DNA of 57,957 nt from Nitrospiraceae bacterium. GTDB taxonomy: Bacteria; Nitrospirota; Thermodesulfovibrionia; UBA6902. Within the stretch, counting starts at the first letter, position 1, and each line of letters starts with the position of its first letter. Where the stretch lies: the NCBI GenBank assembly GCA_020356065.1, contig CP070632.1, forward strand, positions 1,086,973 through 1,144,929. Direction: 5' to 3'. The position numbers and the translations under genes were made by a program. Below are positions 3,608 through 16,470 of this stretch, one piece after another. Under the pieces are notes generated by a model. The model was not told where the DNA came from and did no database searches. It saw only the letters and a list, made by a program, of their open reading frames with translations.

Positions 3608-3943
3608 ATGAGATTCATAAAAAAAATATGTGCCGTTGCCATAATACTGTCATTCATCTCTGTAAACATACCCGGGACGGTATTCGCCGGGGATGAGGAC
3701 CTTTACTCAGAATCATCACATATCACAGAGAACGTACCCGAGATGATCGTTCAACCCGAAGTAGACATCCCGATGGAACAGGTCTCGACAGAGAGCAAGG
3801 GCAGTAAAAAATGGATATACTACGTGCTTGGCGGTGCCTTGATTGCAGGCGGCGCTGCCATCGGACTTGGTGGAAGCAGTGCTGGTTCTGAACCCGAACC
3901 TCCGAAAACGGGTACTATCGTCATCAGCGGGCCTGCCCCGTGA
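3608..3943 (+). CDS. Small exported protein with C-terminal membrane helix
   Basis: ATG 3608 is chosen over the overlapping ATG 3590 because GGAG (3597-3600) lies 7 bases upstream. The product (111 aa) starts MRFIKKICAVAIILSF, a signal peptide cut near VFAGD. An acidic linker (DEDLYSESS onward) follows, then KKWIYYVLGGALIAGGAAIGLGG, a Gly/Ala-rich membrane helix, and a short Pro-rich tail ending GPAP. I recognise no family. Position suggests a partner of the caspase/DUF4384 pair, perhaps a small envelope anchor; that is inference only. Confidence 0.65.
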   Translation: MRFIKKICAVAIILSFISVNIPGTVFAGDEDLYSESSHITENVPEMIVQPEVDIPMEQVSTESKGSKKWIYYVLGGALIAGGAAIGLGGSSAGSEPEPPKTGTIVISGPAP

Positions 3944-8005: not shown

Positions 8006-8431
8006 TCAGCACACCTCATCATAAAGTGCTTTGTATATTGATCCAGAAGGAATATATAGATAATATATTTTGTTATAGTTGGTATTCAATATCATTTCAC
8101 CACTCATTTTATAACTGATTATTGATTTTACCCCGACAATATTATCTGCACAATTTATCACCATTGTTGATATCGAATGATCTTCCAATTCAATACTTTC
8201 ATCTTTAGCCGCATATTTTTGAAAAAACTGTTTTACCGAATCTTTATCTTTATAAGTTTGTTTTAGTATTACCTGAATAGTCATTTCAGAAAGATGCTGG
8301 ATGTCATCTAAATCGTAGTAGTATACATAAACACCCCTTGAAGCAAGGTGCTCCCATTGTACGGCATTTGATTTTGCATAAAACAGTAATATTGAGATAA
8401 TAAAAATAACAACAAGAATCACTTTCCTCAT
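8006..8431 (-). CDS. Exported surface-adhesin-E-like small protein
   Basis: ATG 8431 is preceded at 7 bases by GGGGGG and starts a clear signal peptide (MRKVILVVIFIISILLFYA, cut near SNAVQ). The mature ~120-residue protein has the pattern of surface-adhesin protein E: a W-x-x-L start, YYYDLDDI, VILKQTYKDKDSV, then an INCADNIVGVKSIISY-like strand set. The assignment rests on that general pattern and is moderate. It lies ~270 bases downstream of a GEMM riboswitch on the same strand, so its transcription may depend on a cyclic dinucleotide. An in-between short ORF (8600-8650) separates them. Confidence 0.6.
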   Translation of the reverse strand: MRKVILVVIFIISILLFYAKSNAVQWEHLASRGVYVYYYDLDDIQHLSEMTIQVILKQTYKDKDSVKQFFQKYAAKDESIELEDHSISTMVINCADNIVGVKSIISYKMSGEMILNTNYNKIYYLYIPSGSIYKALYDEVC

Positions 8432-8599
8432 ATTTAATCCCCCCTTCATGGATTAACAACTGAACCTGTATAGAAAGTGGTAAATACGGATATTTGTATT
8501 TAAGTCTTCTGCGTACGTAAGCTCATGATAAAAATTGTATGAGAGATAATTAAACACCGGCATAGCTAAAGCTAAAATTAATGACATTGTAACAGCTGC

Positions 8600-8650: not shown

Positions 8651-8698
8651 CACCCCTATTTTACGCAATAAAAAACCTTGCTTACCTTTGTTAACACC

Positions 8699-8776
8699 TT
8701 CCGTAGCTCGGCCATCTTAATCCTCAGACCCGCCGCTTTCCGTCCCCCTCTCACGAAAGGTTTGGCTTTGTCGGGG
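8699..8776 (-). ncRNA. GEMM-I cyclic-dinucleotide riboswitch
   Basis: Read on the minus strand, the RNA has the GEMM-I landmarks in order: GACAAAGC, then AAACC opening the CCUUUC/GAGGGG stem capped by a GUGA (GNRA) tetraloop, GGGACGGAAAGC, the GGGUCU...AGAUGGCC stem, and GAGCUACGG. The GNRA loop at 8751-8754 would dock on the second stem as in known structures. Class I binds c-di-GMP, and the GEMM-Ib variant of Geobacter binds 3',3'-cGAMP. I cannot assign the ligand without an alignment. A T-run follows at about 8668-8673, but no clean terminator stem is visible. A GGDEF-EAL enzyme is encoded 2.3 kb away. Confidence 0.82.
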
Positions 8777-9765: not shown

Positions 9766-10713
9766 TTACTTTGTTCCCTCATGTACATACCCCGAAAGCG
9801 TGGCAAGACGGTCAGGCTCGAGTATTTCCACGTACCTTTTGCCTTTAATGATCCAGGTGGGATATGACTTGATTTTTTCCCTTATGCAGACCGGTGCCTT
9901 TGGTCCGCTGCGACCCTGTGGAGAGCACTCGATATAGGGAAGTCTGTCAGCTGATGCCCCGAACAGATCCTTCTGTTCCATGCATGCCGGTCACCAGAAC
10001 GCACCGTAAATAAAGGCCTGATCCTGCGTAAGATGTTCAGCCAGTCCCCTGAGAAAGGGGTCTTCAGGTCCGGCCATGGGATCAAATACGCCGCTGTAAT
10101 GCAGGTGCATTCCACCAACGATAATGGCTGTTATGATTACTGTCTGACGGGCGAAGGAGGTATAATTAAATTTTGGCAGTTCCTTTGGCCGCTGATATGT
10201 TATCACGCCGAAGATAACAGTCATGATAGTAAATGATGCGATGCACCAGGCACAGGCTGCCTGAATCACGACCACCGAGATTGTTATGAGATAGATACTG
10301 TAGCCCAGGCCAACCATGGAGACTGTCCATCCTGATTTCCAGTGTGTCCCTGGATTGCGAACTTTGATTCCTACGTAGCACAGTGCAGCGTATGTCAGGA
10401 AACCCCAGAAAGCAGTGGGCAGGCCGAGAAAGGTCCCCCATCTGCTCTGCTGAACAATGTCGCAGGAACTTCCTTCATCGCACAGTAACGGCGCTCTGTC
10501 CAGCCAGCCGGTGAGAGCCAGATAAGCGGTCAGTATCATACCAGCTGTCGCCAGTCCCGTGAGGGGCCAGTTTGGTTTTTCCATCAACTTAAGCGCCGGC
10601 TGTTTCTTCTTTTTTTTCTTTTTTGGCTCTTTCGGCTGTTCCTGAATCAGGGGTTCTTTTAAAGATGACTGTGTCTGCTGTGCAGCTCCCCTGCGTTTCT
10701 TTTTCTTGCCCAT
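9766..10713 (-). CDS. VKOR-thioredoxin fusion, probable selenoprotein (TGA at 9991-9993 read as Sec)
   Basis: Read through the in-frame TGA, the product has 315 residues. Residues 1-45 are a Lys-rich cytoplasmic tail. Residues ~50-190 are a VKOR domain: several membrane helices, the loop pair Cys...SSC-D, a conserved Ser/Gly-x-x-x-G turn and the CAWC active site. A further helix leads to a periplasmic thioredoxin-like domain. Its active site is IYGAFW-[TGA]-PAC-MEQKDLFG; bacterial VKOR-Trx fusions have W-C-P-x-C here, so TGA replaces exactly the nucleophilic Cys. The downstream part keeps YIEC, the cis-Pro SYPTW and LSGY, and is clearly still under selection. A SECIS-like hairpin follows the TGA. 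The protein should drive disulfide formation in exported proteins. Alternatives are a recent nonsense mutation or a sequencing error. Confidence 0.8.
9961..9978 (-). promoter_or_regulatory. SECIS-like hairpin downstream of the TGA codon
   Basis: Twelve bases after the TGA the message folds as GAACAGA-AGGA-UCUGUUC: 7 bp, perfect, with a 4-base loop whose second base is G. Bacterial SECIS elements are short stems at this distance from UGA with a G among the first loop bases; E. coli fdhF has 11 bases before a similar stem. The hairpin lies inside coding sequence and does not disturb the thioredoxin frame. Confidence 0.7.
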
Positions 10714-11049: not shown

Positions 11050-13284
11050 ATGAAAAACAATAAGCTCATACAACACATATTTATTATTTCACTGGTAATA
11101 TCCGTTATTTTTCCGCTTGTAAATATTTATTTTATTTTTCCGTCATTTAAAGATCTTTTAATTAACAATGCTGAAGATGAAGCGCTAAGAATAGGCAATC
11201 ACATGTCAGGCATGCTGCTTAAAAAAAACAGAGAACTCACGCATGCAAATGTTACCAGCACGTTGTCCCTCGACAAATATCAGTTGCTGCTCCATGATTT
11301 TCAGTTAATGAAGCTCAAAATATTCAGTCCTTCAGGTGAAATTCTCTATTCCACTAACCCCGATGAAATAGGGGATATAAACGTTTACAGCTATTTCCAT
11401 GAGCACGTGGCACGTGGCAAAACGTATACAAAAGTAGTGAAAAAGGACTCCGAATCTCTCGAGGGCCAAAAGGTTGTGGTGGATGTTGTGGAAACGTATG
11501 TGCCGATCATCAAGGGCAATAAATTTTATGGCGCCTTTGAAATATATTATGATTTATCCTCTAGAAACAGGGAACTTAATGACTTTATTGTTATTTCTTC
11601 GATTGTAACTCTTATCCTGATATTCGGGTATCTTGTAACGCTCATATACGTAATTTTACGTTCGGATAAAAGAAATAGCGAAATACTTTTGGAACATCTG
11701 CCCCGGCGTCTCAGTTCTCCATTTTATTCCATATTACTGATTATCATATCATTATTTGTCACGGAAACCATCGTGATGCTGGTTATTTCTGCTCTTCCGT
11801 CTCTTTCCGTAATTACCAGGGCAGTATTTGATTCAACGTTACTTGTAGTTCTTGTTTCACCCTTGCTGTATTATTTCATGCTCAGGCCGCTGCTTGTGCA
11901 TATTACTGAACTTGTCCGTGCAAAGCAACGCATATCTCATATGTCACTCTATGATGATTTAACAAATCTTCCGAATCGCACCCTCTTCGGTGACCGTCTG
12001 CAACAGGCAGTCTTGCATGCGGAACGTTATAAGCGAAAGCTTGCAGTATTGTTTCTTGATCTTGACAATTTCAAACGCTTAAATGACATCTTTGAACATC
12101 GCGGAGGAGACCTCATTTTACGGGAAATAGCTGACCGGCTGAGCTCCAATTTGCGATCGTCCGACGCTATGGCCCGAATGAATAAGGAGGAAGTCTCGAG
12201 CATGGTAGCACGGTTGGGCGGAGATGAATTCAGTATTCTGCTGACTGAGGTACAGACCAAACAGGATGTAATCCAGGCAGCAGGACGAGTTAAGAATATA
12301 TTGTCGGAACCCGTGATGATTAATGATCAAGAGGTCTTTATCACTAGCAGTATCGGAATCGCTACCTATCCCGGTGATGGGCAGGATGCGGACAGTCTTC
12401 TCACGAATGCCCATTCAGCAACGTATTACTTAAAAAATCATGGAAGAAATAATTTCCAGTTTTATGAAGACTCAATGAATGAAACAGCCTTTCACCTCCT
12501 CATTCTGGAAAATGACCTGCATAAGGCTCTCAATAATGAGGAATTTATTCTCTATTACCAGCCCCGGATGGACATTCTTACAGGAAACATTGCATCACTG
12601 GAAGCACTTATACGCATGATTAAGCCGGACAGGGGTATCATTCCTCCCATGGAGTTTATCCCCCTGGCCGAGGAGTCCGGCCTGATTGTTCCGATCGGAG
12701 AATGGATCATGAGGAATGCCTGTCAGATGAGGAAATCATGGCAATACTCCGGACTTATTGATACCAGTATTTCTGTAAACATTTCCGGATATCAGTTTCA
12801 GCGGCAGGATTTTATCAGTACCATTGCCCGTATTCTGGAGGAAACGGGTCTTGATCCGTCACTACTGGAGCTGGAGATTACTGAAACCGTTATGATGCAA
12901 GACGGGAGAGAATCGCTCACCATATTACACCAGCTGAAAGACATGGGCGTGTGTCTTGCCATGGATGATTTCGGGACCGGCTACTCGTCATTCAGTTACC
13001 TGAAAAGCTTTCCACTGGACACGATTAAAATCGACAGATCCTTTATCAGAGACGTTACCACAAACAAGGACACAGCGGCCATTGTAGAGGCAATTGTAGC
13101 CATGGCTCTCAGGCTGGATTTACGAATTGTTGCCGAAGGGGTTGAAACCGGGGAGCAGCTAACGTTTCTGAAAGATCAGGGATGCCATGAAATTCAGGGG
13201 TTTTTCATCACCCCTCCTTTACCAGCTGATGCAATATATCCCTTTATTATGGAGACATCAAACAGAGCTCACGTCATCTCCTAG
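11050..13284 (+). CDS. Membrane GGDEF-EAL cyclic-di-GMP enzyme with periplasmic sensor
   Basis: The 744-aa protein has a membrane helix (residues ~10-30), a periplasmic Cache-like domain (~35-185, with IFSPSGEILYSTNP), then helices near 178-200 and 222-280. The GGDEF domain runs from ~295 (LYDDLTNLPNRTLF) and has an intact LGGDEF at 389-394. No RxxD inhibitory site precedes it. The EAL domain starts near 490, with EAL at 518-520. All usual metal and catalytic positions appear (NIS, EITE, DDFGTG, KIDRSF, AEGVE, QGFF), so both synthesis and hydrolysis of c-di-GMP are possible. It could feed the GEMM riboswitch at 8.7 kb. It stands alone. Confidence 0.9.
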   Translation: MKNNKLIQHIFIISLVISVIFPLVNIYFIFPSFKDLLINNAEDEALRIGNHMSGMLLKKNRELTHANVTSTLSLDKYQLLLHDFQLMKLKIFSPSGEILYSTNPDEIGDINVYSYFHEHVARGKTYTKVVKKDSESLEGQKVVVDVVETYVPIIKGNKFYGAFEIYYDLSSRNRELNDFIVISSIVTLILIFGYLVTLIYVILRSDKRNSEILLEHLPRRLSSPFYSILLIIISLFVTETIVMLVISALPSLSVITRAVFDSTLLVVLVSPLLYYFMLRPLLVHITELVRAKQRISHMSLYDDLTNLPNRTLFGDRLQQAVLHAERYKRKLAVLFLDLDNFKRLNDIFEHRGGDLILREIADRLSSNLRSSDAMARMNKEEVSSMVARLGGDEFSILLTEVQTKQDVIQAAGRVKNILSEPVMINDQEVFITSSIGIATYPGDGQDADSLLTNAHSATYYLKNHGRNNFQFYEDSMNETAFHLLILENDLHKALNNEEFILYYQPRMDILTGNIASLEALIRMIKPDRGIIPPMEFIPLAEESGLIVPIGEWIMRNACQMRKSWQYSGLIDTSISVNISGYQFQRQDFISTIARILEETGLDPSLLELEITETVMMQDGRESLTILHQLKDMGVCLAMDDFGTGYSSFSYLKSFPLDTIKIDRSFIRDVTTNKDTAAIVEAIVAMALRLDLRIVAEGVETGEQLTFLKDQGCHEIQGFFITPPLPADAIYPFIMETSNRAHVIS

Positions 13285-13998: not shown

Positions 13999-16470
13999 TT
14001 ACCGTGCATGATCGGGAACTATTATATTTTTGGTCTTCTCAACTCTCTCTTCAACATCATGATAATATTTAAACCTGAACAGTGCATCAAGACCATGACA
14101 GTCGATGCATAAAAGGCTGTAGGTCTGCATCCTCAGGAAACTGTTTGTTGCATTGCCTTCAACATTTTTCCCGGGGCCTGTTGTCTTGAATTTCGGATCC
14201 CATTGATGCACGTTATGACATGAAGGACATGAGATATTTCCCACAGTCAGATACTCCCCTGAACTGTCATTATAGATCGGAAAATAGTTGGGTGTATGCT
14301 TGATATCCCGACCAATATTATTAATCAGTTGATCATCAGGATGGGAGGCGATGACCGGTACCTTGTCTTTTGCGGAACCATCTCCGGCATGACAATAATT
14401 GCACATTTTATCCATCAAGGATGGACCGTCACCAAAGCCCAGCGCCCACAGCCTGGTTTTATTCTTGCTGTTATGGACATTATGGCACACACCACAGGTG
14501 CCTGCTTCCGCAGCCGTCAGTCCGAATGATTCAGATATCGTCATATCATGGTCAGTCATTTCCACATAGGATTCATCTTTGTGGCAGTTTCCGCACAGCC
14601 GTGGACTGGGAAAGTTGCTCATCCTGAGAAAACTGTTTCTAACATTGCCCTCTATCTTGATGTGTTCGCCGTTCATAATATTATCAGCTGACCATGTATG
14701 CGGATCATGACAGGTCTCACAAGTCATTAATCCATTATCATCAAGATGACCCTTGTTATCGAACAGGGGCAGGGTAGTGGTCAATCCTGATTCAGTGAGG
14801 GATATGTTGACAGGATGTGAATAGTCCTTCACAATTTTTTCTTTTGCCATTCCCTGTTCATTGTGGCAGGCTATACACAGGTCCTGTACCACATTGCCGC
14901 TTTCAGATACTGTTTTTCTGGCCCAGAGATATCCCTGTTGTCCGCCGTGTACAAGATGGCACACGCCGCAGATCCCTGACTCGGCAGGGGTTTGATCGAG
15001 AGCATTTTTTTCTTCAGGAGCGACTTTTGCAATATCATGCTTTGAATTCTCTATGAAAAACTTATTGCTATGGCATTCTTTACAGATGTCAGGCGCCGGC
15101 CTTCTAAGAAAAGAGGTGAGGCTGTTCCCTTTCACGTTCTCACTTATCTCGCCCTTTTCTGAATCAGATCTCCAGCGGTGCGGATCATGGCATGTTGTGC
15201 ATGTCACATTACCGTCACGGTCCTGTATCCCGTACTTATTGAAAAGCGGCAGTGTGAATGTGCTTTCATCCATGCTTGAAGTTGCGAGGTTGAGTTTGTG
15301 ATCACCGTTATTAAAGGGATTAATGCCAAGAGGATGCCTGTAATCAACAGGGACTGCTTTTTCAGCAATATTCCCTTTTGTATGACAGCTCAGACACAGA
15401 CGTGTGATAAAATCTTCCCCTTTACCTGACGTTCTGGCTTCTTTATGCGGAAGGTGGCAGGGGGAGCATATGCCGGTTTCAGCAACGGTCTTTCCTTCAA
15501 GGTTTTTTTCCTCAGGTGCTGAGTGAGTCAGGTTGTGCTTGGTATCGGCAAGGTAGTTCTTGTTCTTATGGCATGTAAGGCAGAGCGTTGACTTCTCATC
15601 CTTCATGATCAAAAGGAGCCTTTTCTCTATATTGTTATTGTGCACCTTGTGGCATGTCTGGCATATAATCTCACCCTGCCATCCGAGCTTTGCCCCTCTG
15701 TCAATAACCTCTTCAGGGATGGTGACGTTAACAGGCTTGACATTTACCACATGCTGGTGGTTTCTCTTCCCTTCAGCATCAAAGATCTTCTTGTTGGCAT
15801 GGCATTCAAGGCACAGACCCGAGTTTCTAGCGCTTTCTATGAGGAAACTCTCATTGGGTGATCCGTGCACTGTATGGCATGTCTCACATATAATTTCATT
15901 CTTGCCGTCTCCCTTGCGGCCGCCATGGGTCATTATCGTTTCAGAAATCTCTTTTTCAGACGTGCCGACAGGATGGTTTCCTTTATCTACCCCACCGGTT
16001 TGATCAGTGTGGCACATTTTGCACATTGAGGAATTATTATTTGATGCCCTTATAAAGATCGTTTTTTCAATTCCCATCTCACTCGGAACGCCGTGGGCTG
16101 TATGACAGGTTGCACACTGCATATTCCCTTTTTCATCCAGTGGAAAGATCTTTGGTATGTTCATATGCTCGGGAGGCGGCTTGTCCGTATTGTGGTGCTT
16201 GTCATTGTAGACCTTTGCCCGTGAGTCAACAACACTGCCGTCATGGCAGGTAAAGCACATGTCTACTGATGCCACTACTTTCTCCTGCTGATAGGGAACG
16301 AGGTCTGAACCACGACCGTCCAGGTAAAAGGTATCTATCCATCGGTAATGACAGATGGCACATTCCTTGGCAGAATCAGGATTTCTCGGTGCTTCAACAA
16401 CAGCGTATGTCACAGCGTTCGGAAGTACTGAACACATTATTGATAAAAACAGGAATACGTTTCTTCTCAT
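13999..16470 (-). CDS. 20-haem periplasmic cytochrome c (module B, OmcQ-like)
   Basis: The 823-aa exported protein (signal peptide cut near TYA) carries 20 CXXCH motifs by my count, spaced through the whole length. Many occur as paired CHxxH/CHxP blocks of ~70 residues (for example TCTTCHDPH ... SFLRRP ... ICKECHSN ... ICGVCHLVH), showing growth by internal repetition. The N-terminus KECAICHYRWIDTF and the C-terminus LCIDCHGLDALFRFKYYHD match the 18-haem paralogue at 20501-22762, so the two differ by about one two-haem unit. Role by context: a periplasmic electron wire or store for the membrane b/c complex encoded upstream. Last gene of its module, 3 bp after the NHL gene. Confidence 0.9.
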   Translation of the reverse strand: MRRNVFLFLSIMCSVLPNAVTYAVVEAPRNPDSAKECAICHYRWIDTFYLDGRGSDLVPYQQEKVVASVDMCFTCHDGSVVDSRAKVYNDKHHNTDKPPPEHMNIPKIFPLDEKGNMQCATCHTAHGVPSEMGIEKTIFIRASNNNSSMCKMCHTDQTGGVDKGNHPVGTSEKEISETIMTHGGRKGDGKNEIICETCHTVHGSPNESFLIESARNSGLCLECHANKKIFDAEGKRNHQHVVNVKPVNVTIPEEVIDRGAKLGWQGEIICQTCHKVHNNNIEKRLLLIMKDEKSTLCLTCHKNKNYLADTKHNLTHSAPEEKNLEGKTVAETGICSPCHLPHKEARTSGKGEDFITRLCLSCHTKGNIAEKAVPVDYRHPLGINPFNNGDHKLNLATSSMDESTFTLPLFNKYGIQDRDGNVTCTTCHDPHRWRSDSEKGEISENVKGNSLTSFLRRPAPDICKECHSNKFFIENSKHDIAKVAPEEKNALDQTPAESGICGVCHLVHGGQQGYLWARKTVSESGNVVQDLCIACHNEQGMAKEKIVKDYSHPVNISLTESGLTTTLPLFDNKGHLDDNGLMTCETCHDPHTWSADNIMNGEHIKIEGNVRNSFLRMSNFPSPRLCGNCHKDESYVEMTDHDMTISESFGLTAAEAGTCGVCHNVHNSKNKTRLWALGFGDGPSLMDKMCNYCHAGDGSAKDKVPVIASHPDDQLINNIGRDIKHTPNYFPIYNDSSGEYLTVGNISCPSCHNVHQWDPKFKTTGPGKNVEGNATNSFLRMQTYSLLCIDCHGLDALFRFKYYHDVEERVEKTKNIIVPDHAR

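Follow-up and report, generated by a model that had tools for sequence, protein, structure and literature searches.

We found, in a window of 57,957 nucleotides from a Nitrospiraceae bacterium (contig CP070632.1), a gene that very probably encodes a selenocysteine (Sec)-containing VKOR-thioredoxin fusion enzyme. A hairpin just downstream of an in-frame UGA would direct insertion of Sec at residue 241, and the product would carry out quinone-linked oxidation of dithiols.

A VKOR-thioredoxin frame with one internal TGA

The initial annotation of the window had described a VKOR gene that appears to stop at TGA 9991-9993 while its frame continues as a thioredoxin tail. Indeed, this TGA is the sole interruption of the frame 10713..9766 on the minus strand, and reading through it (TGA=U) yields a protein of 315 amino acids in which Sec is residue 241 (...IYGAFW-U-PACMEQKDLFG...SYPTW...LSGY). 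The VKOR membrane domain covers residues 49 to 170 (10204..10569, minus strand; Pfam PF07884, 1.3e-21). A thioredoxin-like domain with the motif U241-P-A-C244 covers residues about 219 to 310 (9784..10059, minus strand) and was delimited by alignment to PDB 3kp8 (E 5e-37), which Foldseek also matched to it (TMt 0.94, rmsd 1.0). Beyond the TGA, the frame encodes a thioredoxin-like domain in full, as profile alignment to the Synechococcus VKOR showed. The family profile matched PDB 3kp9/4nv5 along almost its entire length (7e-64; E about 1e-63 across 3kp9, 4nv2, 4nv5, and 4nv6), and the same Synechococcus VKOR structures were the top fold matches of a predicted structure (mean pLDDT 77).

All relay residues of the Synechococcus VKOR are kept, namely, the periplasmic loop cysteines C78 and C84 (10462..10482, minus strand; Cys50 and Cys56 in Synechococcus), S90, the quinone-side CxxC C154-C157 (10243..10254, minus strand), and U241/C244. 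Both cysteine pairs of the VKOR part are invariant in our alignment and were placed by alignment to 4nv2. The window protein hence has the VKOR domain, loop Cys pair, Ser, CxxC, and fused thioredoxin of a VKOR-thioredoxin fusion, Sec being allowed at the first position of the thioredoxin motif. It shares the two domains, the relay cysteine positions, and the thioredoxin tail with the Synechococcus enzyme (PDB 3kp9, 4nv5, and 4nv6), to which it is about 31% identical over the structure alignment, but has Sec241 where the latter has Cys209.

We then gathered homologues from genomes of the same family and phylum and from named genomes, and removal of duplicates left 88 sequences. The active-site column holds TGA in 28 of them, TGC or TGT in the other 60, and nothing else, confirming by alignment that the TGA (9991..9993, minus strand) occupies the place of the first Cys of W-C-P-x-C, the first Cys of the thioredoxin CxxC. 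Identity of the TGA homologues to the window protein goes down to ~49%. The Cys forms, found in Nitrospira-type and other bacteria (L042-L059 and L117-L171), have the same fold and motifs and, in most Nitrospirota members, share 42 to 51% identity with the window protein. One genome that had been flagged for a single TGA (G329) turned out to carry a Cys form, its TGA lying outside the active site. A sequencing error is an implausible source of the window TGA, because the same TGA is present in 26 other genome assemblies.

The hairpin and its conservation

A hairpin with a 7-bp stem and an AGGA loop, GAACAGA-AGGA-TCTGTTC (9961..9978, minus strand; loop 9968-9971), starts 12 bases past the TGA, exactly as initially described. 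The published bSECIS model specifies a loop of 3 to 9 nt, a stem of 4 to 16 bp, a G in the first two loop positions, a distance of 16 to 37 nt from the UGA, and an MFE of <= -7.5 (PMC13188914). With a 4-nt loop, 7 bp, a G at position 2, a TGA-to-loop distance of 19 nt, and -8.4 kcal/mol when folded with 1-nt flanks (-6.8 for the bare 18-mer), the window hairpin agrees with this model, as had been proposed. Of the window's 42 TGAs flanked by long open stretches, the VKOR TGA and one spurious site were the only two that did so.

Taken singly, this hairpin is not strong evidence for a SECIS element, because the peptide EQKDLF by itself favors GAACAG...CTGTTC: given this peptide and pooled codon usage, the chance of a full 7-bp stem is ~27%, roughly one in four randomly drawn synonymous sequences forming one. 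The stem nevertheless goes beyond chance, since all seven pairs are kept at the same place in 28/28 TGA forms and in only 1 of the 60 Cys forms, the other 59 lacking the full stem. An MFE of <= -7.5 was likewise obtained for every TGA form and for a single Cys form. In the TGA forms, the stem is closed by a GAT, TTT, TCT, GCT, or GTT codon; five amino acids are thus encoded there (Asp, Phe, Ser, Ala, or Val) with a third base that is always T, while in the Cys forms the third base is mostly C and G. The CAG, CTG, and TTC codons are invariant across the TGA forms, and in two sequences GAG instead of GAA replaces an A-U pair with a G-U wobble. The loops of the TGA forms (AGGA, AGGC, AGGT, AGTC, AGTT, and GGGA) all fit the G[G/U] rule. 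The homologues are related and hence not independent, and we give counts with the Cys forms as a control instead of a probability.

The strongest evidence for the predicted Sec is comparative, and it bears directly on the possibility that the TGA is a true stop, leaving a 240-residue VKOR without a thioredoxin domain and a downstream relic. We consider this very improbable. The stem alone would be compatible with it, being fairly likely by chance for EQKDLF, but the synonymous freeze at the hairpin argues against it, as do a codon that is always TGA and never TAA or TAG and a Cys at this column in all other homologues. Moreover, decay of the downstream half, named at the outset as a sign against the Sec reading, was looked for in relatives and found in none: this half is conserved and stop-free in 28/28 TGA forms, and its Ka/Ks of 0.07 to 0.33 (0.05 to 0.16 upstream of the TGA, where measurable) indicates purifying selection. 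Alternatively, VKOR could end at the TGA and the thioredoxin domain start as a second protein at ATG 9979-9981, an in-frame codon 9 bases past the TGA in the window genome. However, relatives have Val, Ala, Thr, Lys, Gly, and other residues in place of this Met, and a product started there would lack the Trp and the first active-site residue, which makes two separate proteins extremely improbable. A pseudogene stop, a split gene, and a general reassignment of TGA were all rejected because of conservation.

Selenocysteine machinery and distribution

The source genome (3.17 Mb, one sequence) carries selA, selB with winged-helix domains, and selD, the last itself with an in-frame TGA, in GGUAAK. 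selA and selB are neighbors with a transposase gene between them, which probably splits an ancestral selAB pair. This transposase looks IS4-type (L015:12475-13692; C1 about 3,057,474-3,058,691), and both sel genes are intact.

Searches of the source genome for tRNA-Sec with the Rfam tRNA-Sec model and ARAGORN returned ordinary tRNAs only, and a pattern search gave nothing real, while most family members have a tRNA-Sec scoring over 70 bits. When the tRNA-Sec of a relative was used as the query, 51/51 bases matched the source genome, anticodon TCA included. The gene lies at C1:2032116-2032170 (L074:1501-1554), where its 5' 54 bases are followed by about 100 Ns, so that the 3' half cannot be read. 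These Ns may mark a gap in the scaffold or masked sequence; because they cut the gene, automated tools will score this genome as lacking tRNA-Sec. With selA, selB, a Sec-containing selD, and the 5' half of tRNA-Sec present and no downstream decay in relatives, the Sec reading of the window VKOR-thioredoxin is supported.

In several family genomes, further copies of the final ~26 bases of tRNA-Sec lie at other sites, like att-type direct repeats (G006:C181:4319-4344; G009:C232:1-27 and 3807-3832; G032:C2:2344-2367; G300:C1:1513180-1513207). This is the pattern that would be expected if mobile elements integrate at tRNA-Sec.

Sec forms were found in Thermodesulfovibrionia and related Nitrospirota metagenome-assembled genomes (MAGs), in Desulfuromonadales, in SAR324, in a Desulfobulbaceae MAG, and in MAGs labelled Deltaproteobacteria. 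The Desulfuromonadales carriers include the cultured Malonomonas rubra DSM 5091 and Pelovirga terrestris M08fum and a Geopsychrobacter MAG. A further genome of the Malonomonas order (G459) has one internal TGA and stands outside the counted Sec forms. A MAG of the same genus as the window genome (G007) holds two different Sec-form VKOR genes, on C1 (L025) and C128 (L039), 82% and 79% identical to that of the window, which are either paralogues or a strain mixture. No relative was found in viral contigs or plasmids.

selA is present in 26/27 genomes with a Sec form, in 0/25 Cys-form genomes of the Nitrospira-type family (f32), and in 11/19 other Cys-form genomes. The one Sec-form genome lacking selA is a Victivallaceae MAG (G422) whose 3-kb contig groups with Desulfuromonadales and was probably misbinned. 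In the tree, the Sec forms make up one side of a single branch (support 99/89; 97% of bootstrap trees). The simplest reading is thus a single change from Cys to Sec with later transfer from phylum to phylum, although the root is not fixed.

Proposed function and significance

In the mechanism that we propose, SelB and tRNA-Sec would decode UGA 9991-9993 as Sec under the direction of hairpin 9961-9978, giving a membrane VKOR to which its own periplasmic partner, a thioredoxin-like domain, is fused. By homology to the Synechococcus VKOR, Sec241, the N-terminal residue of the thioredoxin CxxC, would take electrons from dithiols of exported proteins and hand them on, through exchange with loop Cys78/Cys84, to C154-C157, and these would reduce a quinone, probably menaquinone. 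The oxidized resting form would be a Sec241-Cys244 selenylsulfide. In the Synechococcus VKOR crystal structure the interdomain disulfide is Cys50-Cys209 (PMC4555152), and the predicted equivalent in the window protein is Cys78-Sec241. Sec is dispensable for the reaction itself, since Cys forms work in many bacteria; any kinetic advantage it might bring is something that we infer, as are Sec insertion, the direction of electron flow, and the quinone type.

In Malonomonas, Pelovirga, and a third Desulfuromonadales genome, tlpA/resA, ccdA (DsbD_TM), dsbB, and dsbA precede the Sec VKOR on the same strand, forming an oxidative-folding and cytochrome-maturation cluster. The window gene is isolated, flanked by a LysM lipoprotein gene and a divergent GGDEF/EAL gene (11050-13284), and the function proposed for it is accordingly drawn from homology and from gene clusters elsewhere. 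A c-di-GMP-I-GGC riboswitch scoring just above the gathering threshold was also seen at 8698-8775 (minus strand), upstream of a small gene at 8006-8449 (minus strand).

Because the relay residues are kept and the Desulfuromonadales genes lie in such a cluster, the most likely role would be to oxidize dithiols of exported proteins in a quinone-linked reaction in which Sec is the attacking residue. The enzyme could instead act mainly as a reductase or isomerase that keeps the CXXCH cysteines of apocytochromes reduced for heme attachment. In general, Sec paired with Cys is more reducing than two paired Cys, and both the ccdA and tlpA/resA neighbors and the CXXCH motifs of the window would suit such a role. 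We regard it as quite unlikely, since none of the VKOR electron-relay cysteines varies, a sign of quinone-linked oxidation, and dsbA and dsbB lie in the same cluster. The CXXCH motifs number 149 between positions 14001 and 56973, in 13 open reading frames with at least three each and up to 26 in one frame, in line with the ~150 first estimated, and this region is a dense multiheme cytochrome cluster. That a Sec VKOR suits the maturation of many cytochromes c is a plausible conjecture, to be weighed with the service of Cys forms in many other bacteria and with the isolated position of the window gene.

Translation of bacterial selenoproteins terminates at UGA when selenium is poor. Here it would stop after Trp240, leaving a VKOR without its partner domain. 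This might be by design, the full Sec enzyme being made when selenium is replete and the shorter VKOR using separate DsbA-like proteins when it is not; dsbA and dsbB adjoin the gene in Desulfuromonadales. We think such a two-product arrangement unlikely, and it would extend rather than oppose the preferred reading of a Sec-dependent fusion enzyme.

The Sec VKOR-thioredoxin looks like an undescribed selenoprotein family. The initial annotation called a Sec nucleophile in a disulfide-forming VKOR fusion unusual, and the 119 prokaryotic selenoprotein families inventoried in 2026 include many UxxC thioredoxin-like proteins and no VKOR (PMC13188914). No selenoprotein model of NCBIfam 20.0 matched the window protein, and earlier inventories and full-text searches gave no VKOR selenoprotein, a mention in Haft and Tolstoy 2025 or Deng et al. 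2026 being possible. The UxxC proteins (thioredoxin, DsbA-like form 1, DsbG-like, and thiol:disulfide interchange protein) resemble the window protein in having Sec first in a thioredoxin-fold active site and a SECIS just downstream. However, none is listed as fused to VKOR in Table 1 of that inventory (PMC13188914), whereas the window family would be membrane bound and quinone linked. What is new is the combination of a known enzyme with a known mechanism of UGA recoding.

Ordinary gene callers will place the end of the gene at the UGA, so that the thioredoxin half is missed and the Sec VKOR probably figures as a truncated VKOR in annotations of the genomes that carry it. Two carriers are cultured, which makes the claim directly testable. 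The list of Sec enzymes gains a predicted membrane disulfide-forming enzyme, and the Sec clade and its Cys relatives, with and without Sec machinery, offer a natural comparison for why selenium is used in oxidative folding. More tentatively, as a possibility that we would not yet call probable, this family may place selenium in quinone-linked disulfide machinery, having had a single origin in a Cys enzyme and having then passed between phyla, but only to bacteria equipped with Sec machinery, in which protein export and cytochrome maturation would have become selenium dependent.
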